From the NCBI GenBank assembly GCA_938743325.2, contig OW568881.1, positions 496,001-560,000 on the forward strand: a stretch of 64,000 nucleotides of DNA, written 5' to 3'. Numbering within the stretch: the stretch's first letter is position 1; each line of letters begins with the position of its first letter. This document shows, piece by piece, positions 1-64,000 of the stretch. The notes below the pieces were generated by a model that made no database searches, was not told the DNA's origin, and saw only the letters and a program-made list of their open reading frames with translations. Source of the DNA: Pycnococcus provasolii. Lineage: Eukaryota; Chlorophyta; Pseudoscourfieldiophyceae; Pseudoscourfieldiales; Pycnococcaceae. The position numbers and the translations under genes were made by a program.

Positions 1-181
1 CAAAAGCCAAACGGGAAATTTCAAATTCCGCGGCCGGGTGGGTCCCTCAGGTGTTGCCCTGTCTGTTGCCCTGCCACCTGACCTTGCGGCTTGCAAGAGG
101 TGTGGTGTCCCACTGTCCCGCCCCCCTGACCGAACGACAGCTCTCTCGTAGTTGGTAACTCGCATCAACCAACAACGTATC
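1..181 (+). promoter_or_regulatory. Upstream region of the coiled-coil gene
   Basis: No gene is visible in this stretch. A C6 run at 121-126 lies about 56-61 bp before the ATG at 182, on the sense strand of that gene. This matches the C-run pattern seen upstream of many other genes here. No TATA box is evident. Confidence 0.35.
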
Positions 182-2395
182 ATGTCCCTGGAGGAGTCCG
201 CGGCCGCTGACTCGACATCCATCTTTCCTTGCCTCGACGCAGTTCTCACCGCACGCTCTCACTCACTTAGCTTGGAGGCAAGCGCGCCGTTGGAGAATAC
301 GACATGTGTCTCGAAACATGGGAAGCAGCATACACATCAGACGTCAGCGTTAGCGGAGGAGCTTGTGGAGGTCTCCGAGGAAGTCACCGAGGAGGTCTCT
401 GAGGAGGTGGAAGTTGGGGGCTCGGAGTCTTGGCTCGGTCCATCTTCGAAGATGACGGACATAAAAACGAATCAAGTAGGGGGAAGGGACTTGGGAAGTG
501 TGGCGCCTCTGACGCCGCCGCAGGCTTCTTCGGAGCAGGAAAGGCCGAAGCCGCAAGCGTCGGTGTCGAGCGCGTCGACGTCGTTTATTTCAGAGTACGG
601 AGCGGTGCCGGCGGATGTGAGCGAAAACGACCTGTCCGCACAAAAGCTGGCAAGCATCATGAGCTTCCTCGACGGCGTGGAGAAAAACCAAGAAAGCGAA
701 GGATCGCAAATCGCAGACGCCGCTGCTCCGCCAGCGTCACAAGAGAACAATAAGGATGATGACACGTTCTCGGTGTCAAGCTTCTCCACTGCGCTCACGG
801 AGACCACCAACCGTGCACAACAGGGCGGCGGGGCCGCCGCTTCCGTGCGTCGAAAGATTGAGGCGCTGAGACACCAGCTTCGTCTAAGGACAGACGAGTG
901 CGAGGCTCTTCAGGAGCAGCTCAGGGTAGAAACCGAGCGTCGTGGTGCGCTCTTGGAGACTGCCGAGGCGGAACGCGACGCCGTCACATCCAGGCTCAAG
1001 GTGGAGCACGAGGAGGCGTCCAAGCGGCACCTCGCCTTTGTCGACCAGCTGCTCGCGGACAAGGCTGAGCTCGCCGAGAGGTGTACCGCGCTTGCGGAGG
1101 AGCTCAGGAAGGCGGAGGTGGCCGCGGCAGAGGCGGACCGCGAGGGGCGCGCTAGGCTGCACAAGGAACTCGCTAGCCAGAAGGACATGATCCTCGCGAG
1201 CGAGAAGAGGAGTCGTGAAAAGTGGATGGAGACGAAGGCCAAGGAAATCAAGGAGATGACCGTCAAGGGGCTCGAGCCTGAGATTCACAAGCTCATGGAG
1301 CGGCACCGCGCGGAAGTCGACCGCATCGAGCAGGCCAACTCGGACGCCCTTAAGCGACAGCACGCAGACATCACCGCGCAGCACGAGGCGCACATAAGGC
1401 AGCTGCGAGATCGCATGGCACAGGAACAGGCAGATGCGGTGGAGCGCGAGCGCTCCATGGGCGCTGCGAAGGCGCGCGAGGCGTGCGAACGTGCAGAGCA
1501 GCAAATGCAGCTTGGGCGCATGAGACTGCAGGCGGAGGCTGACTTGAGGCTGGAACGCGCCGAGCAATCGAAGCGAGAGGAGCGCGACCGACACGCTTCT
1601 GCGCTGGCAGCCGCGAAGGAGGAGCACGCCGCCGCGCTCGCCGCTGCCACAGCAGCGTCGAACGAGCGCATGGAAACCGCAGGGCGTCGCGCGGAGTCAG
1701 CGGCGGCATCAGCAAAGCAGGAGTTCGCCGCGGAGAAGGAGGCATTCCAGCGCGTCACGGTCGAGCGTGCGCGCAAGGAGCTCGCAGAGAAAGAGGCGCA
1801 CATCCGGCAGATGCTCACGGCGGAGCGCGACGCGGAGCTGAAGCGTGTCATCGCGAGGCTTGAGACAGAGGCGGAGGAACGCCTTCGGTCGGAGTTGCGC
1901 GAAAGGGAGGCGACGATGGAGACTCTGCGCACGCGTGGTGCTTCGGATCTGGCTGCCGAACGCGAGCGTGTGCACGCGCTTACGCTTCGGCTGAACGAGT
2001 GCCTCGAGACAACACGCCGCGCGGAGGAGACGGCTGCGCGGAGCGGAGAACGCGCGCATCAGCTGGACATGGAGCTGCAGCGGACAAAAGAAGCTGCAGA
2101 TTCCGCGCGCATGGAGGTTGCAACGATGCAGCTCCAGGTGCAAGGGTCTCACGGCGCCGCCGCCGCCGCTGAGGCGCAGGCGCAGGTGCAAGTGGACGAG
2201 CTGCGAACGGCACTTGCGTCGCGCGATGCGAGCCTCGCTGACATTTCGTCGCGGCATCGGCGCGAGCTTGAGGATGTCGAGGCGCGTGTGCGAGTTGCTC
2301 TGGCGCGGAAGGACGAGACCATCGCAAGCTTGAGAGAGCAGATGAGCGCGGTGATGCTGCAAGTGACCGAGGCGGCGACTTATCCCTTATCCTAA
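182..2395 (+). CDS. Long coiled-coil protein of unknown function
   Basis: The frame gives a 737-residue protein from the ATG at 182; a longer open frame upstream has no ATG. Residues 1 to about 210 are acidic, Ser/Glu-rich and probably disordered. From about residue 225 to the end the protein is almost continuous heptad-like sequence rich in Glu, Arg, Ala and Lys, predicting a very long coiled coil. There is no signal peptide, membrane segment or catalytic motif. Proteins of this composition are often centrosomal, basal-body or flagellar scaffolds, but that is inference from composition only; myosin-tail or SMC-like similarity would be non-specific. It ends 79 bp from the convergent vWA-like gene. 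The reading frame is long and uninterrupted, so the gene is secure while its role is unknown. Confidence 0.8.
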   Translation: MSLEESAAADSTSIFPCLDAVLTARSHSLSLEASAPLENTTCVSKHGKQHTHQTSALAEELVEVSEEVTEEVSEEVEVGGSESWLGPSSKMTDIKTNQVGGRDLGSVAPLTPPQASSEQERPKPQASVSSASTSFISEYGAVPADVSENDLSAQKLASIMSFLDGVEKNQESEGSQIADAAAPPASQENNKDDDTFSVSSFSTALTETTNRAQQGGGAAASVRRKIEALRHQLRLRTDECEALQEQLRVETERRGALLETAEAERDAVTSRLKVEHEEASKRHLAFVDQLLADKAELAERCTALAEELRKAEVAAAEADREGRARLHKELASQKDMILASEKRSREKWMETKAKEIKEMTVKGLEPEIHKLMERHRAEVDRIEQANSDALKRQHADITAQHEAHIRQLRDRMAQEQADAVERERSMGAAKAREACERAEQQMQLGRMRLQAEADLRLERAEQSKREERDRHASALAAAKEEHAAALAAATAASNERMETAGRRAESAAASAKQEFAAEKEAFQRVTVERARKELAEKEAHIRQMLTAERDAELKRVIARLETEAEERLRSELREREATMETLRTRGASDLAAERERVHALTLRLNECLETTRRAEETAARSGERAHQLDMELQRTKEAADSARMEVATMQLQVQGSHGAAAAAEAQAQVQVDELRTALASRDASLADISSRHRRELEDVEARVRVALARKDETIASLREQMSAVMLQVTEAATYPLS

Positions 2396-2473
2396 GATCG
2401 CTCATTCACTTAATTTTCATAAAAGTTTTGGTTACAGAAAACGCACAATTTAAATTTCGAAAAGGAATTGCTT

Positions 2474-4783: not shown

Positions 4784-5658
4784 TCCCAAACTTCCACGTG
4801 CAAGGTGCGAGTTGCCCGTTGCCAGGGGAGGAATAGGGACGAGATGCGGACTTGGAACTGCTAAAGGTATTGACTTCCTTCCACAGTTCCCCTTCAATCA
4901 GGACAACTTCAGGCATCAGGGGAACTTCAGGGTGATCTGAGGTGTTAAGGCCACTGTAGTACTACGTTAACAATCTACTGCATTTTACGTTATTGGTTAT
5001 TGGTTAACACAGGCTAACGTTGCCTAATGTGTCCTGTCCTGTTTGTACGGTTTGTACGGTTTGTACATACTGTACCTGTCCTGTTCACCTGTTGGGCTGT
5101 TCTGTTCTGTACTGGAATTCGTGTCCTTTCTCCCTTACAGTAGGTGTCCTTTCTCTTCCTTTTTTCAATGGCCAGGTAGGTGCCAGGTATCCAACTTCGT
5201 GATGTCAACTACTTTGGTATGTACTTCCTACTACTGTATGTATCAGTTATCACTTCAACTCTTCAAGGAGTATCCAGACAGCTTTGAGAAGCTGTCTGGA
5301 GACACTCGGAGACACGCGGTGACACACCATTACGATAGAGCACGCCCATGTCTACGCCCATGGGCCAACGGACCCTCCCCCGCTCAGGACACAGGTTCCC
5401 CACGGGCACGACCCAACCTCCCATGCCTAAAAGTAACCCCGAACCCCGAACCCCGAACCCTACCCCTAACCCCGAACCCCGAACCCCGAACCCCGAACCA
5501 CTCCCACTCCTACAGTCCTACCCCTCACTGACCCCTAACCCCTAATTGGGAGGTCCCCCCTTTTTTCCTTTTTTTTTGAACTTCTGGCGCGCTCCCTCCC
5601 CTCCCCCTGTTTTTGCGCGTGTGCTCATTTCCGCCTCCTCGGAGCTCGGGTGGCCACC
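4784..5658. repeat. Head-to-head intergenic region with simple and telomere-like repeats
   Basis: No gene is seen. The region holds tandem copies of a 9-bp unit TTTGTACGG near 5042-5068, a perfect 11-bp inverted repeat with a 4-base loop (5274-5299), and an array of degenerate CCCCGAA/CCCCTAA units at 5435-5545. C-runs at 5555-5560 and 5592-5608 follow, just before the MSH2 ATG. Confidence 0.6.
5435..5545 (+). repeat. Degenerate telomere-like CCCCGAA/CCCTAA array
   Basis: Consecutive units of AACCCCG, AACCCTACC and CCCTAA type run for about 110 bp on the + strand. They lie 114-224 bp upstream of the MSH2 start codon, C-rich strand in the sense direction. Confidence 0.75.
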
Positions 5659-8376: not shown

Positions 8377-8450
8377 GGTAGCAGTTTGGATTTTACCTGA
8401 GATACTTCATTCAGTAATAAAGTTGCAATTTGGTTTGTCCAACGGTCGTC

Positions 8451-8507
8451 CATTCACACCATTCACTTTCACCATTCAGCCCATTCACAGGTGCCATTCA
8501 CTGCGCG
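8451..8507 (+). repeat. Short imperfect CCATTCAC repeats
   Basis: Five imperfect copies of CCATTCA(C/G) follow the MSH2 stop codon and lie between it and the convergent small gene. They may be part of the 3' processing region; no function is shown. Confidence 0.5.
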
Positions 8508-8543
8508 TTTTTGTACATGGCGCAGGTGATTTCGAATGTTAAA

Positions 8544-12123: not shown

Positions 12124-12252
12124 CGATCGCTGCCGGACGTCGACCTGTTGTGGTGACCTGTTGTGGACTTGTGGTGATGCTGTGTCACTGTGTGCCAAAG
12201 TGACGAAACCCAACCCCGAACTCATGAAAAAAAATTAAAAATTCCATTCTCT

Positions 12253-12282
12253 CCCCCCCCCCCAGTCCCCCCCCCCCCCCCC
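12253..12282 (+). promoter_or_regulatory. Poly-C tracts between divergent genes
   Basis: An 11-base C run (12253-12263) and a 16-base C run (12267-12282) lie about 94-123 bp upstream of the RlmN-type ATG, C on its sense strand. This is the extreme example of the upstream C-run pattern. Run length could be affected by sequencing error. Confidence 0.5.
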
Positions 12283-12375
12283 TTGACCCTTGAGGCCGCC
12301 CCGCCCGGCTGCCTGTTCTCCCTCCCCTGTCACCTGTCTCCTCCGCCGCCATTGACCTCCTCCCTAGACGACTTT

Positions 12376-14406: not shown

Positions 14407-14653
14407 CACGTATGTGACGACTGATGTGACTAAATGATCGGGGAAGGAAACTGATTGAAAGTCCAACAAGAAATTCGCCAAGACTCCTCCAAGAAAGAGC
14501 GAATGATCGATTATTCGGGGTTGGTTCACTTCACTTCATTTTGTTTTGTTTGGGGGTTACACCTGGAGGTTTTAGGGTTTTGCTTATTTCGTTCCGTCGC
14601 GCCGTTACTTCTGGCTGGACATTTTGAATTTCTTGTCAGTTACAACAAAAAGT

Positions 14654-17540: not shown

Positions 17541-17556
17541 CCCCACCCCCACCCCA
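17541..17556 (+). promoter_or_regulatory. C-rich tract upstream of the hydrolase
   Basis: A C4-A-C5-A-C4 run lies 69-84 bp before the ATG at 17625, on the sense strand. It fits the upstream C-run pattern described under findings. Confidence 0.4.
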
Positions 17557-20943: not shown

Positions 20944-21787
20944 GGATGGATCCCACCCAGAGATAGATGACGCGATGCGATGCGATGCGAGCGATGGAAC
21001 CTCAAAATCAATCCCTGGGTGACTGGGTCCACCTGAGAGAGAGAGAGAGAGAAAAAGGGAAAAAATTTCAGTTCTCGGAAAAACGTCTTGTTCGATTGAT
21101 TGATTCCCAGATTCTCAGCCAGAAGAAAGGTTCGGAAATGGGATAGAAGGTTACCAACCCCGAAACCGAACGCACACGGCACAGAGGTAACGCACTGTGG
21201 GGATAACCCCTAATACGCTCCCCTGGGAACAGGAAACCCCTAGAGGTAGAGGGGAACAACAGGGTAAGGCTTTTATATTTTTCCTACCCTGTAACCATTC
21301 TCTACTCTTTACCTTACCTTCCCTTAAGCCTGCCTGGCGGTCTTAAGGTGAAGTGAGTTGGGCTACTACTTGCGCAGCCCGCCACACAACGTTGTGTTAG
21401 GAACTACCTAACTCTTAGGAGAGAGCAGCTGACGTCATGGCCGCAGTCTACTTGGCCGGACAAGAGGACGCCTTTGGCTTTGTATGGCCTTTTGACTGTA
21501 CTCGAGTTACCGACGACATGTTGAACCCCCCAAACGCCCCCTGAGTGAGGTCCCAGAGTGAGGGAACCCCCAAACGCCCCCAGCCAGACTGAGTGAACAG
21601 TGAGTGAACCCCCAAACGCCCCCTGAGTGAGTGAACCCCCAAACCAGAGCCCCCAACCCCCAATCAACTCGTTGGACCCCTCTGAGGAGGCTCTGCCTGC
21701 AGGAATATCTCTCTCCTTATCCACAACCAGCCCCCCTTGTGTTTTTTGGCGACGCCATACGCCATAGAACCCCAGGGGTCGTCCGCC
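20944..21787. repeat. Head-to-head intergenic region with C-rich repeats
   Basis: No gene is seen. It holds a (GA)n tract at 21034-21052, and at 21533-21664 imperfect repeats of AACCCCCAAACGCCCC with CTGAGTGAGTGAACC between them, C-rich on the + strand. A C6 run at 21731-21736 lies about 52-57 bp before the RRF start. Confidence 0.65.
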
Positions 21788-22713
21788 ATGCTCTGCTCTC
21801 GTCCGTGTTCATGTTCCCAAGGGCTCTCTCGTCAGGCTTGTGGGTCAGGGTCACTTTCAGGGTCACGTCGTCGTCCTGACTCGTCACGTTCGGTGGTTGC
21901 GTTCGGTAAGAAAGGCAAGAAGAAAGGGGGTGGTGGTGGTGGGGGTTCGCAGGCGGCGACAACCGAAGCGGCTCCACCGGATGAACCTGTGGTGGCGTCG
22001 TCAGGAGATGGCGAACTTGACGTCACGAACGCAATCAAAGCGTGCAAGGATAAAATGACCAAGGTGCGTACATTGCATTGTGGTGAGCGCTTGTTGCGTT
22101 TGCGAAGTGTTTCTATTGCAAATAATGAACAAAAATAAAAACACGAAAAAAAGACGACATGCGACTTACTTACTTACTTACCCTCCCACCTCAACCTCAG
22201 GCGATCGCCAACGTGCAGAGCAACTTCGACAGCGTGCGAACGGGACGCGCAAATCCAGCGATGCTGGACAACATCGAAGTGGAGTACTACGGATCAATGG
22301 CGCCGCTCAATACCGTCGCGGGCATCTCCGTGCCAGAAGCATCGACGCTCGTCGTGAAGCCGTTCGACACAAGCGCGCTGGGAGACATTGAAAAGGCGAT
22401 TCTCGCGAGCGACCTGGGAATCACGCCAAACAACGACGGACAGCAAATCAGACTCTCCATACCCGACATGACAGAGGAGAGGCGCAAGGAGCTCACCAAG
22501 ACTGTGGGGAAGTATGCGGAGGAGGGGAAGGTTGCGATACGCAACGTGCGACGCGACGCGATGAAGGTTGCACAGAGGTGCGAAAAGGACGGACTCATCA
22601 GCAAGGACAGACTCAAGGAGGCTGAGGACGAGGTGCAGAAGATCACAGATGGTTCCATCAAGAAGCTCGAAGACGCGGCAGCTGCGAAGGATAAGGATGT
22701 GATGACACTGTAG
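21788..22713 (+). CDS. RRF: Plastid ribosome recycling factor (two exons)
   Basis: Exon 1 is 21788-22063 and exon 2 is 22201-22713, giving 262 residues. RRF works with EF-G to split post-termination 70S ribosomes in plastids and bacteria. The N-terminal 50 residues (Cys/Ser/Arg-rich) are a likely plastid transit peptide, followed by a Lys/Gly-rich linker. The mature part matches RRF throughout: SNFDSVRTGRANPAMLDNI at the exon 2 start, VEYYGSMAPLNTVAGI, then PFDTSALGDIEKAI and the C-terminal helix with RRDAMK. An upstream in-frame ATG at 21737 is possible. The splice junction joins KDKMTK to AIANVQ in phase 0, restoring the family's first helix exactly. It is the only clearly intron-containing gene here. 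It could be mitochondrial instead, but the linker suits plastid. Confidence 0.93.
22064..22200 (+). other. Spliceosomal intron of the RRF gene
   Basis: A 137-bp intron with GTGCGT at the 5' end and a pyrimidine-rich CTCAACCTCAG at the 3' end, preceded by TTAC repeats. Frame and homology both break across it and are restored by its removal. Confidence 0.9.
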
Positions 22714-23652: not shown

Positions 23653-23931
23653 TCTTTGGAACTGAACCACACAATACGGTTTCAACAACTCGTAATTTTT
23701 TACTATTTTCTAGGAAGGAAGCCGGTACCAACCGTACCAAACGGGGAGTTGGGGGTTTGGACCCTAAAGTCGATATTTTTAGATCATTTTTTGTATGTCA
23801 TCAGCAGCTGCAGCGGCGTTGTTGGCGTACGAGGCGCTTCGTGCAGGTCGGAAACGGTGCGGTCTGTGAGGAGAAATATATAACTTTGTAAAGAAATGAT
23901 CAAAGAGCTTCTGTTACATAAATACATTCTT
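23653..23931. other. Intergenic region between co-directional minus genes
   Basis: Under 300 bp. It holds the G4/G5 runs (23743-23755) upstream of the TSP1-like gene and otherwise nothing recognisable. Confidence 0.35.
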
Positions 23932-25896: not shown

Positions 25897-26115
25897 AAGG
25901 TACGGTACCTTGGAAAGCGTTCTTTTCTTTCAGCCACAGAAAATATTAGGGACGCAAATGGGGATGATCCGCCACCCGTTCCGGCCCCCCGCCGGGATTG
26001 CGAATTTCGCGTCAGGGGGGGATACGTCGTTGGTTGCCATTTTGTAACCGACCGGGCGGGCCAACGGGCCCGGGCCCGCGGCGGGCCCGGCAAACAGGAC
26101 GCCATTGACTACGCC

Positions 26116-33259: not shown

Positions 33260-33660
33260 GAAGAAAAGAGTCTGGCATTGGAATTCGGGGTTCGTCCGTC
33301 ACGTCGCGCTGATGTCTTGATGATTGGGGGTTGGTGTGTCTCGCTAATAAGGGTACCCTTCACCTGCTCATCATACCTTTGCTGCTTTCGCCTTTCGGAA
33401 ACTTGTTTCTTCAGCAGCTGGGTCTCTGCCTCACGGCGAGTATCCCTTTCTCGCAACAACTCAAGTTCGAGATCCTTGTTGCGATTAGCTAAGTCGGCAA
33501 CGTCTTTCGTGTGCCGAACAGTAAGCTCTGCAATCTGCCGCTGCAGCTCCTCCAGCGTCAGCGTAGCAGGCACAGCAGTCGGCGGTTCAGTGGGAGGGTC
33601 CTCTTGGACTTCCTCCACTGCGGATACTTCGTTCGGTATCCGAGTCAGCTGCAGACAGAC
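33260..33660 (-). pseudogene. Coiled-coil open frame without a start codon
   Basis: About 130 codons on the minus strand have strong protein-like composition: an acidic Pro-rich stretch (EEVQEDPPTEPPTAVP), then a helical Glu/Arg/Leu segment (LEELQRQIAELTVRH and onward), then basic residues. There is no ATG before the helical segment, and the frame runs into the upstream part of the peptidase gene. It could be an exon of an unannotated gene or a gag-like mobile-element remnant. Neither is proven. Confidence 0.3.
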
Positions 33661-37192: not shown

Positions 37193-37311
37193 GATAAGCC
37201 AGGTAGTGAAGTGCCACGTGGTTTGGAACAGGGGGGCTGTGCTGTGGCCTGTGGGTCCGTCCCCTGGAGGGGGAGGCCACTTAAACTTTAATTTAACAAC
37301 AGGACCCTTTA

Positions 37312-37346
37312 AAGGGAGGGGGTAGGGTAGGGTAGGGGTAGGGTAG
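37312..37346 (-). repeat. GGGTA repeats (telomere-like)
   Basis: Five or six GGGTAGGGTA-type units occur on the + strand, 120-154 bp upstream of the minus-strand gene ending at 36338, with C-rich strand in its sense direction. Confidence 0.6.
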
Positions 37347-37915: not shown

Positions 37916-38001
37916 GCCCAGGCCGCGGCAGGAGAAGGGAGCCCGCCCGCCCGCCCGAAGGAAGGAAGGGAAGAACCCAACCCTGCTAACGCCTGATTAG
38001 G
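37874..38001. repeat. 128-bp direct repeat, copy 2
   Basis: This is the same sequence and orientation as copy 1. Its outer edge runs directly into TTAGGG-like repeats. Confidence 0.9.
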
Positions 38002-38100
38002 GTTAGGGTTACGGTTAGGGGTTTCGGTTAGGGGTTTCGGTTAGGGGTTTCAAGAGGTTGGGGTTGAGGGTAAAGGGTAGGGGTGAAGGGTAGGGGTGAT
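37996..38100 (+). repeat. Degenerate TTAGGG/GGGTTTCGGTTA array
   Basis: Two TTAGGG units are followed by three GGTTAGGGGTTTC units, then GGGTAGGGGTGA units. The array lies directly beside the recombinase remnant. From 38101 to 38349 nothing else is recognisable. Confidence 0.75.
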
Positions 38101-39741: not shown

Positions 39742-40241
39742 CCTATTATACCACTTCAATTCAGTAGTCTATTTGACCAGAGGGGATGCCAAAAAGCCGT
39801 TATTAGGAAATCACATCACGCAAAGAAAAATCAAGGCACCGAAACCCCGAACCTCCAAACCCCTAACCTACTCCAAACCCCTAACCTACCCAAACCCCTA
39901 ACCAACGCCAAACCCAACCCCGAAACTCCAAACCCCTAACCAACGCCAAACCCCTAACCACGCCAAACTCCAAACCCCGAAACTCCAAACCCCTAACCCC
40001 CACCAATAGAAATGCCCATTCAAGCCCAGGGTGGTTCGACGACGGATCCCCCCGGCAGGCACCCGGCATCCACCTGGGAGCAGCGTGGCGTTGATAGACT
40101 ATCAAACAAACCCCCCCCTCCCTCCTCCTTTTTTGGCTTTTTAGTTTCCAACGGGTTCGGTTCGGAGACTTCGGTTGGTTGCCTCGAGGGTGGGTTGAAG
40201 AATAATGTGTTCATTTTTCGTGTTCGTTTGTTCCGGGGGCG
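39742..40241. repeat. Head-to-head intergenic region with AAACCCCTAACC array
   Basis: From about 39840 to 40002 the + strand consists of AAACCCCTAACC, AAACCCCGAAACTCC and related units, a degenerate telomere-like array. A C8 run at 40111-40118 followed by CTCCCTCC lies about 124-131 bp before the next ATG. No gene is seen. Confidence 0.75.
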
Positions 40242-42250: not shown

Positions 42251-42280
42251 TTAGGGTTAGGGTTAGGGTTAGGGTTAGGG
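42251..42280 (+). repeat. Interstitial telomeric repeat (TTAGGG)5
   Basis: Five uninterrupted TTAGGG units are preceded by GGGG. This is the only perfect telomere-type array in the window. It lies between CFAP300 and the PHD-finger gene. Confidence 0.95.
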
Positions 42281-42800: not shown

Positions 42801-43050
42801 GTTAACGAATTTCCCGCAAGTAACGACCAGAACCAACGACCAACCTGGAAAGAAAACTAAGGTTAGGAAAAGCAGGGAGGGGAGGGGGGGAGGTTCCGAA
42901 CCGAAACGGGAACCTAGGGCAGCCGGGGCCCGCAGATGCTCCCTGGAGTCCTTTCTCCCGATGGAAAACAACAAACCAAAACAATCGCAATGAGGGAAAA
43001 GCCCAAGGGGGATCCCCTCCCCCTAACGAACGACGCGGCAGCGTCTTTTG

Positions 43051-43059
43051 CCCCCCCCC
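43051..43059 (+). promoter_or_regulatory. C9 run upstream of the PHD-finger gene
   Basis: Nine consecutive C lie 38-46 bp before the ATG at 43097, on the sense strand, with further C-runs at 43015-43024. Confidence 0.4.
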
Positions 43060-45282: not shown

Positions 45283-46161
45283 TCACTCACCTCCCGGCGC
45301 CGCAGCCAGCTCAAGCATGGCGAGCGCAGTCTCCGTGAAGCGCGTGCGCCAGTCTGATTTCGCCGCCGGTGCACCACCGGGTGGTGGCGGCGCCGTTGAC
45401 CGACGAGGGACGCCCTTGAGTGGTGGTGGCGGCGGCGTTGGCACTGCGATCGTCGTGTTCGTGCGGTTCTTCCGAGCGCTTAACGATGCAACCGTGAGCT
45501 TGGGAGCATGCACGTTGCGATACTTGCGGAGCGAGGCGACCGCCGAACGCGGCGGGCGATTCACCTGCCGGATGACGTTAATTGGTCGGCGTCCGCGATA
45601 CCCACGCCTGCCCCAGCAGCACGCCCACGTGCGTCCGTCCCACCAGAAGCCGCCGAGGAAGTAGCCAGAGTCATCGGGGTTGTAGTCGATGTAGTCGTCG
45701 AGGATGTTGTCGATCATCTCGTCGTCATACGCATCGATCAAGTCCCCGTAATCGATCTCGCCTTCGCCTCCTCCGTCAGGCGGCGTGACGTCGATCGGCG
45801 GTGTGATGTCGATTGGAGGTGGTGACGGCGGCTCAGGCAGCACCTCCGCATCTGGCAGAGCGGGGAGTTGTACTGGTTCGTTTTCGCTCTCGCCGCCACC
45901 ATCACTGCCATCTCCTCCGTATTCGCCACCACCTCCACCACCACCTCCTCCTTCTCCTCCGTATTCGCCACCACCACCTCCTCCTCCGTATTCGCCACCA
46001 CCACCTCCTCCTTCTCCTCCGTATTCGCCACCTCCTCCTCCTCCTCCGTATTCGCCACCACCACCTCCGTCGCCGTAGTCTTGTGCACGCGCGGTGAATG
46101 CCGACACTGCGGTGAAGAATGCGATGAGGAGGAGCAAGAGCAGCGGGCGCATCATCGCCAT
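45283..46161 (-). CDS. Secreted Gly/Tyr-rich repeat protein
   Basis: A 292-residue protein from the ATG at 46161, where MAMMRPLLLLLLIAFF forms a signal peptide; an in-frame ATG at 46402-46404 would add a non-hydrophobic leader that looks like 5' UTR. Directly after the signal comes a repeat of G(5-9)-EYGG(E/G) units (about residues 28-75), then an acidic Pro/Asp stretch with ITPPIDVTPP, an Asp/Ile-rich helix-like segment, and a Trp/Gly/Arg module (GGFWWDGRTWACCWGRRGYRG). The basic C-terminal 90 residues include prolines. The pattern is of a structural wall or matrix protein. A loose resemblance to the Tyr/Gly proteins at 14080 and 22789 exists but is weak. Confidence 0.72.
   Translation of the reverse strand: MAMMRPLLLLLLIAFFTAVSAFTARAQDYGDGGGGGEYGGGGGGGEYGGEGGGGGGEYGGGGGGGEYGGEGGGGGGGGGEYGGDGSDGGGESENEPVQLPALPDAEVLPEPPSPPPIDITPPIDVTPPDGGGEGEIDYGDLIDAYDDEMIDNILDDYIDYNPDDSGYFLGGFWWDGRTWACCWGRRGYRGRRPINVIRQVNRPPRSAVASLRKYRNVHAPKLTVASLSARKNRTNTTIAVPTPPPPPLKGVPRRSTAPPPPGGAPAAKSDWRTRFTETALAMLELAAAPGGE
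45905..46075 (-). repeat. In-frame Gly-Glu-Tyr repeats
   Basis: CCACCACCTCC and CCGTATTCGCC words alternate on the + strand, coding for Gly-rich and EYGG units in the secreted protein on the minus strand. Confidence 0.85.
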
Positions 46162-46227
46162 TGATTGTGCGTACCGGTATGCGTGAGAAGTGAAAAAAGC
46201 CGGGGAATGCAGATTTATCCTCGGACT

Positions 46228-46255
46228 GGGGGGAAGGGGACTTGGGAAGTGGGGG
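46228..46255 (-). promoter_or_regulatory. G-runs (sense-strand C-runs) upstream of the Gly-rich gene
   Basis: G6, G4 and G5 runs on the + strand (46228-46255) lie 67-94 bp upstream of the minus-strand ATG at 46161. Confidence 0.4.
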
Positions 46256-46440
46256 CGAGTCCTCCTCGAATCGAAAAAAATGGAAATCCATCCCCGAATC
46301 GCAGCATCGCCTCCACCTTTTTTCCTGCTTTTGCAGAGGTTCTTCCCTCCCCCTCTGCTTCGTCGGCACTTTCTTTCACACTCTCCCTGCGTGCGTGCGC
46401 TCATTTGCTTACTGATCTTCTTCTCTCGACAACTCTGACG

Positions 46441-54736: not shown

Positions 54737-54882
54737 TTGTGAGCGAAGAGTGGGTGAACAAACAAATTTGTTGCGAATCATCAATTCAGTTGTTGCTGCA
54801 GTAATTACATACAACAAAATTTCACTCTCCCTCCGGCTGCCGCCGCCGATCCCATCAATATGCAACAATGAGCTGGCAATGC

Positions 54883-56733: not shown

Positions 56734-57296
56734 GATTATCAAATTCTTCTTCTTATTTGTCCTACTACTGTAATTGTTGCAGGATGTTTTTGTCTTGTTG
56801 TTGTTGACAACGATGATACTTTGATGACGAAGCATCGTCGTCACTATCTATCTATTATTATTATCTGCGTTCGTGATGAATGACTGGTCTGAGTGAGTGA
56901 GCGAATGACCTAAGGTTAAATACCTCCCTCTTACTACGGAATACGGACGCCGGAGCCGCCTGTGATGACAGTGTGGCAGCGCCGACGACGACACCCATTC
57001 CACCCACCCACTTGGCGAGACTTCATTGCAACAGTGACGACGCACGCTTGCAAACATTTTTTAATAGTATGTGAAGTGCTAAAAATTGTCACGTTATTTA
57101 TCAACGTTCAGTTCGAGGGACCCCCGGCCCCAACTCCCCGGCCCCGGGTTTGGGGGTTTACGTTTCGGAAAAGTCGGGGTTTGGTTCGATCATTACAAAA
57201 ATTTGTCTAGCTAAGTTTAGCTAGACCTATGGCGTCGCATTTTACATCGCCAGTAAAAAGTAAACTGATGCTGTTATTTTTTCCTCATTTATTTTC
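56734..57296. other. Intergenic region that is part of the tandem duplication
   Basis: From 56853 onward the sequence is nearly identical to 59155 onward (offset 2302). It holds C/G-rich sequence at 57120-57175 and an inverted repeat at 57205-57226, but no gene. Small open frames here are duplicated along with it and have no codon-level sign of being genes. Confidence 0.6.
57205..57226 (-). terminator. Inverted repeat downstream of OPR-RAP gene 1
   Basis: An 8-bp perfect stem (GTCTAGCT / AGCTAGAC) with a 6-base loop lies about 70 bp after the stop codon. On the minus strand it is followed by A/T-rich sequence. It may be a 3'-end element; function unproven. The same hairpin is at 59507-59528. 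Confidence 0.35.
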
Positions 57297-59033
57297 CTAC
57301 TCTGTTCGCCTCTTCTTTGCATTATTCGTCTCCTCGACAATGATGCCACGCTCCCGCAGCTCGCTCAGGTAATCGATGTAAGGATGTGGCGGTACGTACG
57401 CGCTGGCGGATGCTTGCGGTGTTGGTCTGGTGAGTGCGCCTCCTTCGGCGGCGTGCCCGCCCACCTCGCACAGACGGTGGACTCGTCGACGCGCCTCTAT
57501 GTCTCGGTGGTGGTCTCGGGTTTCGACGGGCACGTTGTCACATTTGAAGGAATGCTTTGAGTCGCGCTCCTGCAGCTCCCTACGCAGGTAAGCGTCGCGC
57601 TCGTCCTCCTTCGTCAGACTTGTCCACTCGTGCCCCGTTACGCACAATACGTCCAGGCCAAGCTTGCGCAAGTCGCAATTGCGCGCGTACGTCGATCCGT
57701 CAATGCGGTACGTGCCATCAGAGGATCGCAAGAAGTGCGTGGGACCGTCGCATTCGATCACAAGCAGCCTCTCGCCACCGTCGTCGGTACGACCACGCAC
57801 GAGCATGTCGACGCGGTGCATGCCATCCTCAGTAAGCGCTTCAACGTCGTAAGTGATGCCGAGACGATCGAGGCATGCGGCGACTTCCCTCTCTAAGGAT
57901 GACTGAGGTGACGACGAACGACTCGCGAGCTGCTTTGCCCATGCCTCGCGTGCCTGATCGAGCAAGGCTGCTGATGGCTTGAAGCGATCGCCGAGCAGGT
58001 GATGCGCCTGGAGGATTTGCTGGAAGGCTTGCTCTTCAAGCGACCTCAATTGTGCGGCATGTTCCAATCGATGCAGTAGCCGATCCAAGACGTTCTGATC
58101 GATCGCCGTCGTCCCCCACAACCGCATCACTCGTCGCGTTGGGCGACAAGTGATGCTATCGCCCTCGATGCTGTTTATAAGCATCGCAATCGCCCATACC
58201 GTGTTCGCGAGATTCTGCGGCTTGAAGACGTCGACGCACGCGAGCATGCGGCGCTCCAGTGCAGCAATAGCATCAGCTGACGGCTGGTGTCGCATCGTCG
58301 CCCACGCCCACAGCGTGTTCGCGATATTCTGCGGGATGAAGTCGTCGGCGCAAGCGAGCATGCGGCGCTCCAAAGCAGCAAGCGCATCAGCTGGCGGCTG
58401 GTGTCGCATATTTGCCCACGCCCACAGCGTGTTCGCGATATTCCGCGGGATGAAGTCGTCGACGCACGCGAGCATGCGGCGCTCAAGAGCAGCAAACGCA
58501 TCAACTGACGGCAGGTGGCGCATCGTCGCCCACGCCCACAGCGTGTTCGCGAGATGCTGCGGCTCGAAGTCGTCGACGCACGCGAGCATGCGGCGCTCAA
58601 GAGCAGCAAACGCATCAACTGACGGCAGGTGGCGCATCGTCGCCCACGCCCACAGCGTGTTCGCGAGATGCTGCGGCTCGAAGTCGTCGACGGTCACCGT
58701 AGGTACCTGGTCACTCAAGTGACGCACAATTGAATGATTCCCGTGGTATCCTAATTTGGCATAAGACCACAGGAGATTGGCAATCTGACGTGCACGAATC
58801 ATGTTGAAGCCTCGCAGGCGCTCGTCTAGCAAAAGAAGCACGCTGTCACACTGACTCTTGCCAAGCGTTCTCGTGCCACTCCTCGCCATCAGCTTCGCGA
58901 GTTTGCTCAGTGCCGTACTCACGTGAATCTCATTGAATTCGCCGACATGCTGCTTGACGATGTCCGCGACTTCACCATCACTTTGCGCCTTCACGATGCG
59001 CGAGGTGAGTCTTGCTGCGGACAATCCGGACAT
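57297..59033 (-). CDS. OPR-RAP organellar RNA-binding protein 1
   Basis: A 578-residue protein from the ATG at 59033. OPR and RAP proteins act in chloroplasts and mitochondria of algae, where helical repeats bind RNA and control stability, splicing or translation. Four full 38-residue repeats (unit beginning DDF-x-P, then LANTLWAWATMRH, then ALERRMLAC) and one partial lie at about residues 113-285; the first two are identical. The RAP domain (about 385-490) has VECDGPTHF, then DLRKLGLDVLCVTGHEW. Before it, HRVDM and VIECD resemble a PD-(D/E)xK-type arrangement. A Gly/Pro/basic tail ends KKRRTE. No clear presequence is seen at this start, so a longer spliced N-terminus or cytosolic role is possible. 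Confidence 0.88.
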   Translation of the reverse strand: MSGLSAARLTSRIVKAQSDGEVADIVKQHVGEFNEIHVSTALSKLAKLMARSGTRTLGKSQCDSVLLLLDERLRGFNMIRARQIANLLWSYAKLGYHGNHSIVRHLSDQVPTVTVDDFEPQHLANTLWAWATMRHLPSVDAFAALERRMLACVDDFEPQHLANTLWAWATMRHLPSVDAFAALERRMLACVDDFIPRNIANTLWAWANMRHQPPADALAALERRMLACADDFIPQNIANTLWAWATMRHQPSADAIAALERRMLACVDVFKPQNLANTVWAIAMLINSIEGDSITCRPTRRVMRLWGTTAIDQNVLDRLLHRLEHAAQLRSLEEQAFQQILQAHHLLGDRFKPSAALLDQAREAWAKQLASRSSSPQSSLEREVAACLDRLGITYDVEALTEDGMHRVDMLVRGRTDDGGERLLVIECDGPTHFLRSSDGTYRIDGSTYARNCDLRKLGLDVLCVTGHEWTSLTKEDERDAYLRRELQERDSKHSFKCDNVPVETRDHHRDIEARRRVHRLCEVGGHAAEGGALTRPTPQASASAYVPPHPYIDYLSELRERGIIVEETNNAKKRRTE

Positions 59034-59081
59034 GCTGAGCTTGTTGACAACAAAATAAGTGGCGACGTGGCGTTATTGGGT

Positions 59082-59125
59082 GGGGGAGGGGGTCAGGGGA
59101 AGCTTCTTGGTCCGCGATACTGTAT
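59082..59125 (-). promoter_or_regulatory. G-runs (sense-strand C-runs) upstream of OPR-RAP gene 1
   Basis: G5 at 59082-59086 and 59088-59092, with GGGG following, lie about 50-100 bp upstream of the minus-strand ATG. The same sequence recurs upstream of gene 2 at 61503-61580. Confidence 0.4.
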
Positions 59126-59506
59126 TGGGGGAATCCGAACTGGATCTGGAAAGATATTATTATTATCTGCGTTCGTGATGAATGACTGGTCTGAGTGAGT
59201 GAGCGAATGACCTAAGGTTAAATACCTCTCTCTTACTACGGAATACGGACGCCGGAGCCGCCTGTGATGACAGTGTGGCAGCGCCGACGACGACACCCAT
59301 TCCACCCACCCACTTGGCGAGACTTCATTGCAACAGTGACGACGCACGCTTGCAAACATTTTTTAATAGTATGTGAAGTGCTAAAAATTGTCACGTTATT
59401 TATCAACGTTCAGTTCGAGGGACCCCCGGCCCCAACTCCCCGGCCCCGGGTTTGGGGGTTTACGTTTCGGAAAAGTCGGGGTTTGGTTCGATCATTACAA
59501 AAATTT

Positions 59507-59528
59507 GTCTAGCTAAGTTTAGCTAGAC
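59507..59528 (-). terminator. Inverted repeat downstream of OPR-RAP gene 2
   Basis: This is the duplicate of the hairpin at 57205-57226, in the same position relative to the stop codon. Conservation here may only reflect the recent duplication. Confidence 0.35.
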
Positions 59529-59598
59529 CTATGGCGTCGCATTTTACATCGCCAGTAAAAAGTAAACTGATGCTGTTATTTTTTCCTCATTTATTTTC

Positions 59599-61449
59599 CT
59601 ACTCTGTTCGCCTCTTCTTTGCATTATTCGTCTCCTCGACAATGATGCCACGCTCCCGCAGCTCGCTCAGGTAATCAATGTAAGGAGGCGGCGGTACGTA
59701 CGCGCTGGCGGATGCTTGCGGTGTTGGTCTGGTGAGTGCGCCTCCTTCGGCGGCGTGCCCGCCCACCTCGCACAGACGGTGGACTCGTCGACGCGCCTCT
59801 ATGTCTCGGTGGTGGTCTCGGGTTTCGACGGGCACGTTGTCACATTTGAAGGAATGCTTTGAGTCGCGCTCCTGCAGCTCCCTACGCAGGTAAGCGTCGC
59901 GCTCGTCGTCCTTCGTCAGACTTGTCCACTCGTGCCCCGTTACGCACAATACGTCCAGGCCAAGCTTGCGCAAGTCGCAATTGCGCGCGTACGTCGATCC
60001 GTCAATGCGGTACGTGCCATCAGAGGATCGCAAGAAGTGCGTGGGACCGTCGCATTCGATCACAAGCAGCCTCTCGCCACCGTCGTCGGTACGACCACGC
60101 ACGAGCATGTCGACGCGGTGCATGCCATCCTCAGTAAGCACTTCAACGTCGTAAGTGATGCCGAGACGATCGAGGCATGCGGCGACTTCCCTCTCTAAGG
60201 ATGACTGAGGTGACGACGAAGAACGACTCGCGAGCTGCTTCGCCCATTCCTCGCGTGCCTGATCGAGCAAGGCTGCTGATGGCTTGAAGCGATCGCCGAG
60301 CAGGTGATGCGCCTGGAAGATTTGCTGGAAGTGTTGCTCTTCAAGTGTGCTGAATTCTGTGGCCTCTAATTGATGCAGAAGTTGATCCAAGACGTTCTGG
60401 TTGATAGTGATCTTATCGCCCTCGATGTTGTTCATTAGCATCGCAACCGCCCATACCGTGTTCGCGAGAGCCTGCGAGTTGAAGTCGTCGACGCAAGCGA
60501 GCATGCGGCGCTCCAGTGCAGCAAGCGCATCAGCTGACGGCTGGTGTCGCATCGTCGCCCACGCCCATACCGTGTTCGCGAGCTCCTGCGGCTTGAAGTC
60601 GTCGACGCACGCGAGCATGCGGCGCTCAAGAGCAGCAAGTGCGGCAGCGGACGGCTGGTGTCGCATCGTCGCCCACGCCCATACCGTGTTCGCGAGTGCC
60701 TGCGGCTTGAAGTCGTCGACGCACACGAGCATGCGACGCTCCAAAGCAGTCAGCACCTCAGCTGACGGCTGGTGTCCCATCGTCGCCCACGACCACACCG
60801 TATTCGCGAGTGCCTGCGGCTTGAAGTCGTCGACGCAAGCGAGCATGCGGCGCTCCAGTGCATCTAGCACCTTGTCTGACGGCTGGTGTCCCATCGTCGC
60901 CCACGCCCATACCGTGTTCGTGACATCCTGCGGATCGAAGTCGTCGACGCAAGCGAGCATGCGGCGCTCAAGAGCAGCAAGCGTATTAGATGAAGGCTGG
61001 TGTCGCATCGTCGCCCACGCCCACACCGTGTTCGCGAGCTCCTGCGGCTTGAAGTCGTCCACCACCCTAGGTACCTGGTCGCTCAAGTAATGCACCATGG
61101 AATGATTCCCGTCGTCGTATCCTAGTTTGGCACAAGACCATAGGAGATTGGCAACAGGACGTGCACTTATACTCTCAAAGTCGTGCAGGCGCTCCTCTAG
61201 CAGAAGAAGCACGCTGTCACGCTGACTCTTGCTGAGCGTTATCGTGTGACGCCTCGCCGTGAGCTTTGCGAGTTTGTTTGCTGCTGTACTCACGTGAATC
61301 TCGTCGAATTTGCCGACGTGCTGTTCGACAAAGTCCGCGAGTGCACCGTCACTTTGCGCGTTCACGATGCGCGAGTTGAGCATTCTCGCGCATTCCTCCG
61401 CGGACCTCCGCGGATTGTACCTCCTCGTATGTCCGGACAATCCGGACAT
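59599..61449 (-). CDS. OPR-RAP organellar RNA-binding protein 2
   Basis: A 616-residue protein from the ATG at 61449. It is the tandem paralogue of the gene at 57297-59033. The RAP domain and C-terminal 190 residues are almost identical to it. The repeat part differs: five full 38-residue repeats (unit DDFKPQ, then LANTVWAWATM, then ALERRMLACV) plus one partial, against four full in the first gene. The N-terminal 110 residues are similar but diverged. The difference in repeat number and in the variable positions after DDF and after the Met of each unit suggests that the two proteins recognise different RNA targets. The family role is established; the targets are unknown. Confidence 0.88.
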   Translation of the reverse strand: MSGLSGHTRRYNPRRSAEECARMLNSRIVNAQSDGALADFVEQHVGKFDEIHVSTAANKLAKLTARRHTITLSKSQRDSVLLLLEERLHDFESISARPVANLLWSCAKLGYDDGNHSMVHYLSDQVPRVVDDFKPQELANTVWAWATMRHQPSSNTLAALERRMLACVDDFDPQDVTNTVWAWATMGHQPSDKVLDALERRMLACVDDFKPQALANTVWSWATMGHQPSAEVLTALERRMLVCVDDFKPQALANTVWAWATMRHQPSAAALAALERRMLACVDDFKPQELANTVWAWATMRHQPSADALAALERRMLACVDDFNSQALANTVWAVAMLMNNIEGDKITINQNVLDQLLHQLEATEFSTLEEQHFQQIFQAHHLLGDRFKPSAALLDQAREEWAKQLASRSSSSPQSSLEREVAACLDRLGITYDVEVLTEDGMHRVDMLVRGRTDDGGERLLVIECDGPTHFLRSSDGTYRIDGSTYARNCDLRKLGLDVLCVTGHEWTSLTKDDERDAYLRRELQERDSKHSFKCDNVPVETRDHHRDIEARRRVHRLCEVGGHAAEGGALTRPTPQASASAYVPPPPYIDYLSELRERGIIVEETNNAKKRRTE

Positions 61450-61834
61450 GCTGAGCTTGTTGACAACAAAATAAGTGGCCAGGTGGGGTGGCGTTATTGG
61501 GTGGGGGAGGGGATCAGCCGATCAGGGGAAGCTTCTTGGTCCGCGGATATTGGGGGAATCCGAACTGGATCTGGAGGAGGGGATTTCCTAAACCCCAAAT
61601 GCAGCAAGACGCGGCCGGCGTAACCCGTCATCTCATTTCGCCCAACGCAACGCAAAAACAATGTCCTCTCCACGATGATTTCTGCGCGCCGTTCCCTCCT
61701 TAGTCAAATTTTACTTCTTTTCACGATGAAGAAAATGAAGAGTATGGTTACAAGGAGGTCGTCCGGAGTTTGTGTGCGTCCTAGCTGCCTAGTGGATGAC
61801 TGGATTTGATGCATGGATGGCGCCTGCTGATGGC
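61450..61834. other. Intergenic region upstream of OPR-RAP gene 2
   Basis: It has G-runs at 61503-61507 and around 61509-61580 (sense-strand C-runs for the minus-strand gene). The rest up to the acyltransferase stop shows nothing clear. Confidence 0.4.
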
Positions 61835-62884
61835 TTACGCCTCGCTGCCGCCAACGAGATAGCCGTGCTCCTTCATGTCAGAGGGCGCAAGGATCGTGCG
61901 CCCGTCCCAGCTTACCTTGACGCCCTTCTGCATCAGCTGGAACTGCGTCGCCAAGTCCTGGTTGCTCGGCTCCGCGCCCAGCTCGGACGCGAAGAGACGC
62001 TGAACGTTGTTCGCGTACAGTTCTGCGTCGTCACGCTCGGCGGCATTCGGCGCGTACTCAGGAAGCACCGTTACGCTGACGTAGTTTCGAAACTGGCACA
62101 TCATGCGCACGAGCGCAAACAGGTCGTTGCGGAGCGTCCACGCGACGTTGTGGTGTCGGCATGGGTACCTGATGACGATGGGAAGCACGGGCGCGCCAGG
62201 AACGAACGCGCCGCGTTTGAATTTCACCACGGTCCTTCCGTTCGTCGTCGTTCCCTCCGGAGCGACCGCCATGTTCGGGTACCGTTTGTCATTCACGCGT
62301 TCTGCGATAAGTTTGGTTTTGTTCGACGCCCTGGCGCCGACGTTGACGAGGTTCGCTCCCTCGCTTCCCGCCTCGACGCGTTCGACAAGAACGTTCTGAA
62401 AACCGCGTATGGCTGTTCCCAAGATGGGTATGCGTGCGATGGATTTCTTGGTGACCCCGCACGGCTGAAAGAAGTAGAGCATGAGCATGGAGTCAACAAA
62501 GCTCACGTGGTTGAAGACGTACACGATTCTTTTCTGTCCTTTGTGCATATCTCGCGTACAGTTTTCGCGGTACCCTCGCACGTCGAGTGTGATGTATCCG
62601 AGTAGCAATAGGATTATGCGTACGTAGTGTCTTGACGACGTCACGATGGCCCGTCTATGAGCGGGCAGAGGTAAGTTCATGTCGTCAAAGAAGAGCGTCG
62701 CTGCGAATCCGTGCATGGCGACCATGAATAAAAGCAATATGATAATAGGTACTCTGATGAAGATGGTTGGACCTAAAAGGAACATCTTACCTGATTCGTA
62801 ACTTGTAAGACCATAGTGCGTCTCGAGGAACGGGGAGGCATTTAATTGACAGGAAGAGGAGGAGGAGGAGGAAGAAGGTGACAT
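61835..62884 (-). CDS. Membrane glycerolipid acyltransferase (PlsC/LPLAT, LPCAT-like)
   Basis: A 349-residue protein from the ATG at 62884. It transfers an acyl group from acyl-CoA to a lysophospholipid at the ER. A membrane segment (IFIRVPIIILLLFMVAMHGF, about 42-62) is followed by a second hydrophobic stretch (VRIILLLLGYITL). Motif I is NHVSFVDSM, with the catalytic H-x4-D; motif II region PILGTAIRGFQNVLVER; motif III PEGTTTNG; and a Pro-containing motif IV VLPIVIRYP. The GTT after Glu in EGTT and the LVER segment resemble LPCAT1/2 and GPAT9-like enzymes rather than plastid LPAAT. The C-terminal EF-hands of animal LPCAT1 are absent. It is divergent from GRP170. Confidence 0.92.
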   Translation of the reverse strand: MSPSSSSSSSSCQLNASPFLETHYGLTSYESGKMFLLGPTIFIRVPIIILLLFMVAMHGFAATLFFDDMNLPLPAHRRAIVTSSRHYVRIILLLLGYITLDVRGYRENCTRDMHKGQKRIVYVFNHVSFVDSMLMLYFFQPCGVTKKSIARIPILGTAIRGFQNVLVERVEAGSEGANLVNVGARASNKTKLIAERVNDKRYPNMAVAPEGTTTNGRTVVKFKRGAFVPGAPVLPIVIRYPCRHHNVAWTLRNDLFALVRMMCQFRNYVSVTVLPEYAPNAAERDDAELYANNVQRLFASELGAEPSNQDLATQFQLMQKGVKVSWDGRTILAPSDMKEHGYLVGGSEA

Positions 62885-63580
62885 TATTGTCGTACTTTTA
62901 ACAACAAAGGCACTACTAACAACGCCTTCCCTTTTAAAAAAGACAAATATTTGATGGATAAAACTCTGCTGTGATGTTGTGATGCGGATGATGATGCTGA
63001 CAGAGATGATAAACTTCAGTACAGTACAGGGATTTCACGTGTGTCTCCTAATCTTAGGTGGAATCCTTCTTCGCTCGGGTATTTCGTTCCCTTGGGCCTG
63101 GCAGCCTGGGGAGTGGCAAGATCCCCCAATCCCAAACCCCCAATCCCTATGAGTAACCCCCAATCCCAAACCCCCAATCCCAAACCCCCCATGTCGTGAC
63201 TTTTTGTTCCCCTTCTAACCTTAATCCCAATGAGACAGTTGAATCAAGGGGAAATGAGAGGAGTGCATTTCCCCTTGGTTGAATCGTCCCACTGCGGATC
63301 CCCAAACAAACAACTAATAATGGGTTGGTTTGGTCCGCCCTTCCAAAGGAAGGTTCTTCCAGAACAGGGGAAACCCGGGAGAGGAAATGACGAATCGCCC
63401 TGCGAATGCTTCGGGAAGCCCGCCCGCCCGCGGGAAAGGAACTTCTTCCCTCGCGGGGACCCGTGATAGGTGGTTCGTCCCCCCCTCCTGCCCTCTCCCT
63501 AACTGCCCTCCCCCGGGGCTTTTTGCGACATCCAATCCATCTCGATCACAACACACACACCTGAAAGGTTTCCTACCGTA
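62885..63580. repeat. Head-to-head intergenic region with CCCAATCCC repeats
   Basis: At 63123-63190 the + strand has repeated CCCCCAATCCCAAACC units. C-runs at 63479-63485 and near 63510-63514 lie about 65-102 bp before the GRP170 ATG. No gene is seen. Confidence 0.65.
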
Positions 63581-64000
63581 ATGGCGGCTCGTCAGGCTAT
63601 GTCTCCTCACACTCGGGGCTGCTATGGTGGTGGTTGGCTCCTTTTATTGGTATTTCTTTTATTGGGTGCGTGTGTGTCTGTTTGTGATGCGTGCGTGTTC
63701 AGTGTTGACCTTGGCCACGAGTCTTTGAAAGTTTCCCTGGTGAAACCGGGACGTACCCCCATCGCGATCGTCAGCAACGAATTCTCCAAGAGAAAGTCGC
63801 CGGCTTTGGTGGGATTCTCACCGCAGGGTGACCTACTTTTAGGGGAAGATGCGAACGCGGTCATCACGCGTTTCCCGGAACGCATCTTTAACCGCGTCAT
63901 GGCAACCGTCGGAATCAAGCACGACTCGGCTCTCCTCGCGAAGACACTCGAACAACACCGCCTGCCCTACAAAGTCGTCCCAGACCCCAACGGAAGAGAA
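63581..64000 (+). CDS. ER Hsp70-family chaperone GRP170/HYOU1 (partial, runs off the window)
   Basis: The ATG at 63581 opens 140 codons to the window end with no stop. A signal peptide (about residues 15-35, WLLLLVFLLLGACVSV) is followed by FSVDLGHESLKVSLVKPG, the phosphate-1 loop of the Hsp70 ATPase with the GRP170/Lhs1 variant (SVDLGSEW in animals), then IVSNEFSKRKSPALVGF and LLLGEDANAV, where GRP170 family members have a similar order. Ordinary BiP would read GIDLGTTYS. GRP170 is an ER nucleotide exchange factor for BiP and a holdase. The rest of the gene, including any KDEL-like retrieval signal, lies beyond the window. Confidence 0.85.
   Translation, partial: MAARQAMSPHTRGCYGGGWLLLLVFLLLGACVSVCDACVFSVDLGHESLKVSLVKPGRTPIAIVSNEFSKRKSPALVGFSPQGDLLLGEDANAVITRFPERIFNRVMATVGIKHDSALLAKTLEQHRLPYKVVPDPNGRE

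Follow-up and report, generated by a model that had tools for sequence, protein, structure and literature searches.

A directional C-rich pyrimidine patch ahead of start codons, probably at the transcription-start zone, in the alga Pycnococcus provasolii

A stretch of 64,000 nucleotides from the genome of Pycnococcus provasolii (contig OW568881.1, C21:496001-560000; G+C content 57%), hereafter referred to as the window, raises the question of what is signified by the runs of five or more C that stand on the sense strand ahead of its start codons, in genes of both orientations. An earlier note on this DNA proposed that they constitute a directional core-promoter element, or else an R-loop or G-quadruplex element, the template strand being G-rich. 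Our analysis indicates that a directional, C-rich pyrimidine patch probably spans the likely transcription-start and 5′ untranslated region (5′UTR) zone, roughly 25 to 150 bp ahead of the ATG. The patch has a strand polarity, a place relative to the ATG and a C/T content of its own, and it is present genome-wide beside start-like contexts; it is scarce in 3′ flanks and without bias at -150 to -300. The proposal of a core-promoter element holds with respect to direction, linkage to starts and genome-wide presence, but not with respect to a distinct C-run element.

The genome consists of 32,333,900 bp in 46 contigs. The host is a photosynthetic eukaryote, since the light-harvesting (LHC) family PF00504 has 51 matches genome-wide. 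The window contains long open reading frames (ORFs) without interruption, and we infer that the genome is intron-poor. Domains detected in the window ORFs include MutS, radical SAM, RRF, S28 peptidase, RHD3/Sey1 GTPase, CFAP300 and 2-oxoglutarate dehydrogenase E1, and Rfam gave no match in the window at gathering scores. The sample comprised the window and twenty 10-kb stretches (264 kb in all), the latter drawn at roughly regular spacing from contigs C1, C2, C3, C5 and C6 only. Genes were defined as the longest ORFs of at least 220 amino acids (aa), which gave 94 ORFs covering 65% of the sequence; this definition replaced a codon-score caller, which was too weak (84 ORFs, 21 of them in the window). 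ORFs below 220 aa were excluded, flanks were cut back where neighbouring ORFs begin, and flanks shorter than 40-60 bp were dropped, leaving 90 of the 94 for gene-level tests and 88 for shuffle tests. Twelve loci that hold telomere-type arrays (see below), as well as loci L001-L008, were left out of the C/G statistics.

Between 25 and 150 bp upstream of the ATG, the sense strand of the 94 ORFs carries 44 runs of at least five C (C5+) and 12 of at least five G (25 and 7, respectively, outside the window); runs of T are likewise more numerous than those of A (T5+ 43, A5+ 25; outside the window 29 and 14). At the level of single genes (-20 to -150, n=90), C5 runs outnumber G5 runs in 24 flanks, the reverse is true of 6 and the remaining 60 are tied (sign test, p 0.0014); the corresponding figures outside the window are 14, 4 and 45 (p 0.031). 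Base counts in the same interval show C>G in 64 flanks, against 25 with the reverse. The orientation sensitivity is also apparent from the pyrimidine (Y) and purine (R) contents: Y exceeds R in 69 of the 90 flanks and falls below it in 20, while at -150 to -300 the two counts are 36 and 40. In this distal interval C5 prevails in 10 genes and G5 in 16, and none of five gene-level comparisons was significant.

Between -25 and -75 the sense strand contains 31-34% C and 22% G. The skew, expressed as (C-G)/(C+G), is 0.093 in the 25 bp next to the ATG, reaches 0.196 at 25-75 bp and declines to 0.080 at 75-125 bp; farther upstream it amounts to -0.013 (125-200 bp), 0.014 (200-300 bp) and 0.046 (300-600 bp), the coding average being -0.021. 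The bias is robust to the removal of promoters with telomere-type arrays (77 genes; 34 C5 and 11 G5 runs; 19 genes against 6, p 0.015). When one of two tandem paralogues and the divergent pair with starts at 12225 and 12376 were removed as well, 30 and 9 runs were left, with 17 genes against 5 of the 74 (p 0.017).

Two checks bore out the asymmetry. The first concerned the 3′ flanks, where the bias is largely absent: 9 C5+ and 5 G5+ runs were found 25-150 bp after stop codons, the C5+ density being 9 in 10.6 kb downstream compared with 44 in 11.1 kb upstream. The second was carried out on the whole genome, with the start-like context ANNATGGCG as the anchor. At 29-59 bases before the ATG of this context there are 275 C5 and 133 G5 runs (binomial p 2e-12), whereas at 204-234 bases the numbers are 183 and 214 (p 0.13); the difference between the near and far intervals corresponds to an odds ratio of 2.4 (Fisher test, p 1e-9). 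The mixed word CTCTCT is also more frequent beside ANNATGGCG than its complement AGAGAG (95 and 64, p 0.017). Of the 91 sites of this context that the sample contains, 8 coincide with called starts, 53 fall within coding sequence and the other 30 lie outside both; the genome-wide signal is diluted because so few of them are called starts. As a separate observation, A+T makes up about 56-61% of the first 100 bp after the stop codons of the sample, where A5 and T5 runs are numerous and C5 runs number three in total.

The number of C5+ runs in the 88 flanks (45 at -20 to -150) is well above that given by mononucleotide shuffles (23.8; maximum of 200, 34), but dinucleotide shuffles reproduce it (44.5), so the runs are accounted for by a local composition rich in CC and in pyrimidines. 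Relative to the same dinucleotide shuffles, G5+ runs are depleted (12, expected 18.3), while T5+ runs (42, expected 34.9) and uninterrupted tracts of at least ten pyrimidines (Y10+; 53, expected 43.8) are in excess. The words that differ most between the sense strand and its complement are TCCCC (58/9), CCCCC (104/34), TTCCC (47/6), CTCCC (46/9) and CCCTC (50/12); seven of the ten most asymmetric 5-mers are composed purely of C and T, and the remaining three contain A. The C-run as a distinct motif was dropped, its count being equal to the dinucleotide expectation and T-runs and mixed C/T words being biased alike. The element, if any, is a C/T-rich patch, of which the C-runs are the most visible part.

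The position of the patch was related to the leader by means of upstream ATG triplets. Compared with the other five permutations of A, T and G, ATG is under-represented as far as about -130 to -160 from the start, in all three frames within 90 bp and in two of the three at 90-130 bp. In the 48 genes with a run of at least four C (C4+) at 25-170 bp, for which the most upstream run was used, there are 15 ATG and 239 permuted triplets between the run and the start (ratio 0.31), compared with 47 and 302 in the 100 nucleotides upstream of the run (ratio 0.78; p 0.0026 for the difference). The greater scarcity of upstream ATGs on the start-codon side of the patch suggests that the patch is situated near the transcription start or in the 5′UTR. 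The depletion suggests that the patch may mark the upstream edge of an ATG-depleted leader, and the likelier case would be a location at or just inside the beginning of the transcribed leader. The best 25-nucleotide C/T window within -200 to -20, determined for the 80 of 94 genes with flanks of at least 200 bp, has its median centre at 95, against 139.5 for the mirror purine window.

Several observations weigh against a directional pyrimidine patch at the transcription start. C5 and G5 runs are tied in 60 of the 90 flanks, so that a C-run is not obligatory. Purine tracts, too, exceed the dinucleotide shuffles at -20 to -150 (R10+ 20, expected 10.5; A5+ 26, expected 17.1), which indicates that low-complexity tracts in general are favoured in this interval, and not pyrimidines alone; despite this excess, A-runs and purine tracts are rarer there than their pyrimidine counterparts. 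The depletion of ATG is partly built in, as the first ATG of each ORF was taken, and distance from the start confounds the comparison across the patch: at -220 to -100 the ratio is 0.60 in genes that lack a C4+ run, close to the value of 0.78 on the upstream side of the run in the remaining genes, and a distance-matched test (12 ATG and 101 permuted triplets for near patches, 0 and 33 for far patches) had the same direction but was not significant (p 0.07). The ORF starts were assigned mechanically, some of them wrongly, and the whole-genome counts rest on a proxy anchor and include some duplicated or repetitive copies and overlapping matches.

How might such a patch arise and persist? RNA polymerase II would initiate in or near it, and the excess of C over G and of Y over R on the sense strand could be maintained by transcription-linked, strand-specific mutation together with selection for an open, initiation-competent, pyrimidine-rich strand. 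The C homopolymers would arise within the patch by replication slippage, and a dedicated reader protein would not be needed. Function and mutation, which the sequence alone does not separate, have about equal standing in this explanation. In this compact algal genome, the patch offers an easily computed cue to the direction and position of gene starts.

Comparable signals are known from other organisms. The Y Patch of plant core promoters consists of direction-sensitive C/T words within 100 bp of the transcription start site (TSS), and its authors suggested that the element is plant-specific (PMC1832190). The algal patch resembles it in its direction-sensitive C/T words of the TCCCTC and CTCTTC type, its occurrence in many promoters and the lack of an exact motif; two properties of the Y Patch, words made only of C and T and sensitivity to orientation, were found. 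It differs in being C-heavier, with C homopolymers, and in its frame of reference, the Y Patch lying at -100 to -1 from the TSS and the algal patch being placed only relative to the ATG, at about -25 to -150. The Y Patch belongs to land-plant promoters, while the present host is an LHC-bearing photosynthetic eukaryote. An excess of C over G around the TSS has been described in several plants and filamentous fungi, with GC-skew values of 0.184 in Neurospora and 0.222 in Filobasidiella; it is not universal, given the values of 0.032 in Chlamydomonas and -0.012 in budding yeast (PMC555766). In unicellular fungi, the 5′ ends of genes are C-biased in almost all cases (PMC3315797), and work on eukaryotic promoters that included rice data reported a CG-skew peak at the TSS (PMC5687710). 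The algal sequence shares the sign and the local peak, sense C>G being found as a peak measured from the ATG, and its maximal skew lies within the range of some fungi, although the plant and fungal values refer to annotated gene sets and other windows. The INR/FPR promoters of oomycetes, compared by their pyrimidine content, are similar in having a pyrimidine-rich start region. The algal patch is a further case of the Y Patch/GC-skew kind known from plants and fungi, and it extends the sense-strand C bias described in them to this alga. No direct report of C-rich or CT-rich algal core promoters was present among the literature matches listed.

The chief rival of a patch shaped partly by function is a purely mutational skew, in which the exposure of one strand at initiation would leave the sense side with C>G and Y>R and the patch would be functionless. 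Of the two causes proposed for fungi, one is mutational (PMC3315797), and mutation is among those discussed for plants and fungi (PMC555766); a mutational skew also accords with runs that track dinucleotide composition and vary in position and presence. The narrowness of the zone, and the bias of words such as TTCCC and CCCTC rather than of C alone, speak against it, and we regard it as possible rather than probable.

It is rather unlikely that the patch acts instead as an RNA element of the 5′UTR, that is, as a C/U-rich leader recognized at the level of the mRNA, in translation control or by poly-C-binding proteins. Such a role would suit its location largely within the zone of scarce upstream ATGs, but neither the distance to the ATG nor the motif is fixed.

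An R-loop or G-quadruplex element with a G-rich template strand, as put forward in the earlier note, seems very unlikely. R-loops form preferentially where the non-template strand and the RNA are G-rich, and an R-loop-prone promoter has G>C on the non-template strand; here the sign of the skew is the opposite and the transcript would be C-rich, so a DNA-RNA hybrid element is probably not involved. Motifs with four G3 tracts do occur at -20 to -150, on the template strand in 9 of 90 flanks and on the sense strand in 6. Once those of the telomere type were removed (5 of the 6 sense and 1 of the 9 template motifs), 8 template motifs remained against 1 sense motif, the latter being the shared poly-C of the 12225/12376 pair; this bias has the proposed direction, but it is what C-richness of the sense strand alone would produce. 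A promoter G-quadruplex would be expected to show four G-tracts in most members, whereas the motif is missing from most flanks, with under a tenth carrying a template motif after removal of the telomere type, and G-quadruplexes as a general element were discarded.

Still less probable is a polypyrimidine tract of a 3′ splice site, belonging to a 5′UTR intron or to spliced-leader trans-splicing. An acceptor would indeed show a C/T tract ahead of the coding start, but AG follows within 10 nucleotides after 38% of 111 sense Y8+ tracts, compared with 52% of 48 antisense controls; a splice acceptor is not supported, AG trailing the sense tracts less often than the control tracts. Chance, or the uneven base composition of one 64-kb window, to which the sense G5 runs of 9 window genes might point, can practically be dismissed in view of the C5:G5 ratios outside the window (25:7) and in the genome near (275:133) and far from (183:214) the anchor.

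With the directional pyrimidine patch as the preferred reading, the runs of the window may be considered individually (Table 1). All 16 runs listed in the earlier note are present in the sequence, and 3 of them are composite: 12253-12282, 17541-17556 (CCCCACCCCCACCCCA, with a single true C5) and 59082-59092 (G5-A-G5). The polarity of 12253-12282 suits one side of its divergent pair, as had been stated. The assignment of 14552-14556 to a minus-strand gene was mistaken, this being a G-run of the wrong polarity ahead of a plus-strand gene. Run 46228-46233 exists but lies inside the called ORF 45283-46404 (minus strand), and it fits the pattern only on condition that translation begins at an internal ATG. 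The statement that more than half of the genes have such a run is slightly overstated, sense C5+ being found at -40 to -250 in 14 of 29 window starts (start 21788 was adopted from the earlier note); C-runs occur in the proposed zone of 40-250 bp, but the tight zone is closer to the start, at -20 to -150, where C5 exceeds G5 in 10 window genes, the reverse holds in 2 and 15 are tied. Sense G5+ runs, which had gone unmentioned beyond the divergent pair, precede 9 of the 29 starts at -40 to -250. Start 21788 has 8 sense C5+ runs in this interval, and the RRF domain itself was detected in the ORF at 22159.

Table 1. Runs ahead of start codons in the window, and telomere-type arrays
Position	Strand	Feature
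121..126	+	C6, sense, 56 bp ahead of ATG 182
5555..5607	+	C6 (5555-5560) and C5 (5603-5607) ahead of ATG 5659
12253..12282	+	C11-AGT-C16; sense for gene 12376, antisense for divergent gene with start 12225
14552..14556	+	Counter-example: sense G5, 98 bp ahead of plus-strand ATG 14654
17541..17556	+	C-rich tract with one C5 ahead of ATG 17625
21731..21736	+	C6, 52 bp ahead of ATG 21788 (start from the earlier note)
23751..23755	-	Sense C5, 99 bp ahead of ATG 23652
26015..26021	-	Sense C7, 119 bp ahead of ATG 25896
33326..33330	-	Sense C5, 151 bp ahead of ATG 33175
37231..37322	-	Sense C6, C5 and C5 ahead of ATG 37192
40111..40118	+	C8, 124 bp ahead of ATG 40242
43019..43059	+	C5 and C9 ahead of ATG 43097
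59082..59131	-	Three sense C5 ahead of ATG 59033 (gene is a tandem paralogue of its neighbour)
61503..61556	-	Two sense C5 ahead of ATG 61449
63479..63514	+	C7 and C5 ahead of ATG 63581
Window 42251-42280, 37997-38020; L013, L020, L023, L024, L026, L027, L029-L040		Interstitial TTAGGG/CCCTAA arrays, 3-10 units

The neighbouring genes at 57297-59033 and 59599-61449 appear to be tandem paralogues; they have FAST_1 and RAP domains and similar N-termini, and their upstream flanks have G-rich plus-strand words in common. Minisatellite-like repeats of the GTTAGGGGTTTGG type occupy approximately positions 39867-39997, upstream of the minus-strand gene with start 39741.

A second feature of the promoters consists of interstitial arrays of the telomere-type repeat. 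Three consecutive TTAGGG units give 5,217 overlapping matches genome-wide (2,626 and 2,591), compared with 2 for the reversed control; arrays opening after a non-G base number 423 sites, and the places listed include many far from contig ends. The 264-kb sample contains 9 arrays of at least 3 units (one mismatch per unit allowed), none of them in a called ORF of at least 220 aa, from which a rough total of about 1,100 arrays may be extrapolated on this one sample. Eight of the nine lie at most 260 bp upstream of a called start, an interval that covers 23% of the non-coding sequence (p 6e-5), and six within 150 bp (14% of the non-coding sequence, p 5e-4), both cut-offs having been chosen after the distances were seen. 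Twelve further loci were picked from the match lists because they hold arrays. Five of seven ORFs scanned beside arrays have a Pfam family, namely CLN3 (at 113 bp), COG7 (96 bp), LSM (74 bp), Bap31 (77 bp) and aldehyde dehydrogenase (146 bp), and the other two have none; at several of the twelve loci, a short mechanical ORF judged to be spurious encloses the array.

Tentatively, many promoters may be two-part: a telomere-type module of TTAGGG or CCCTAA, present as one unit or as an array of 3-10, would lie about 60 to 260 bp before the start, followed by the C/T patch nearer the ATG, and a telomere-repeat-binding protein could then serve as a general promoter factor. Such binders are known as general promoter factors: Rap1/Tbf1 in yeasts and the telo-box/TRB system in plants. 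If functional, the arrays would matter more than the C/T patch. In the sample, those within 130 bp of a start have TTAGGG as the sense-strand unit in 10 cases and the opposite orientation in 3 (hand count with L037 omitted, its ORF being doubtful), but this preference was not supported genome-wide with an ATGGC anchor (32 and 41); this result, and the fact that some arrays abut a mobile-looking repeated segment, weigh against the strongest form of the two-part promoter. Telo-boxes in plant promoters are bound by TRB proteins (PMC10167121) and form a parallel to the TTAGGG arrays ahead of algal starts. Among the literature matches listed, there was no direct report on interstitial telomere repeats in algal or promoter settings.

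The repeated segment is nearly identical in two loci (approximately L029:406-1029 and L040:420-1043), its shared end abutting a TTAGGG array, and the same end lies beside an array at C13:249018. The adjacent ORF of L040 weakly matches the N-terminal domain of an integrase (E 0.00094, below the Pfam cut-off). This element may target or carry telomere repeats. Outward-facing TTAGGG arrays, all preceded by C, were also found at C3:177626-177888 and C7:234710-234972, 244 bp apart in both cases; it is possible that they represent a small element with telomere-type inverted ends.

The LHC-family genes include two clusters, C31:133072-142609 and 360395-366434. Twelve matches have scores identical to the digit, which suggests recent duplication or gene conversion.

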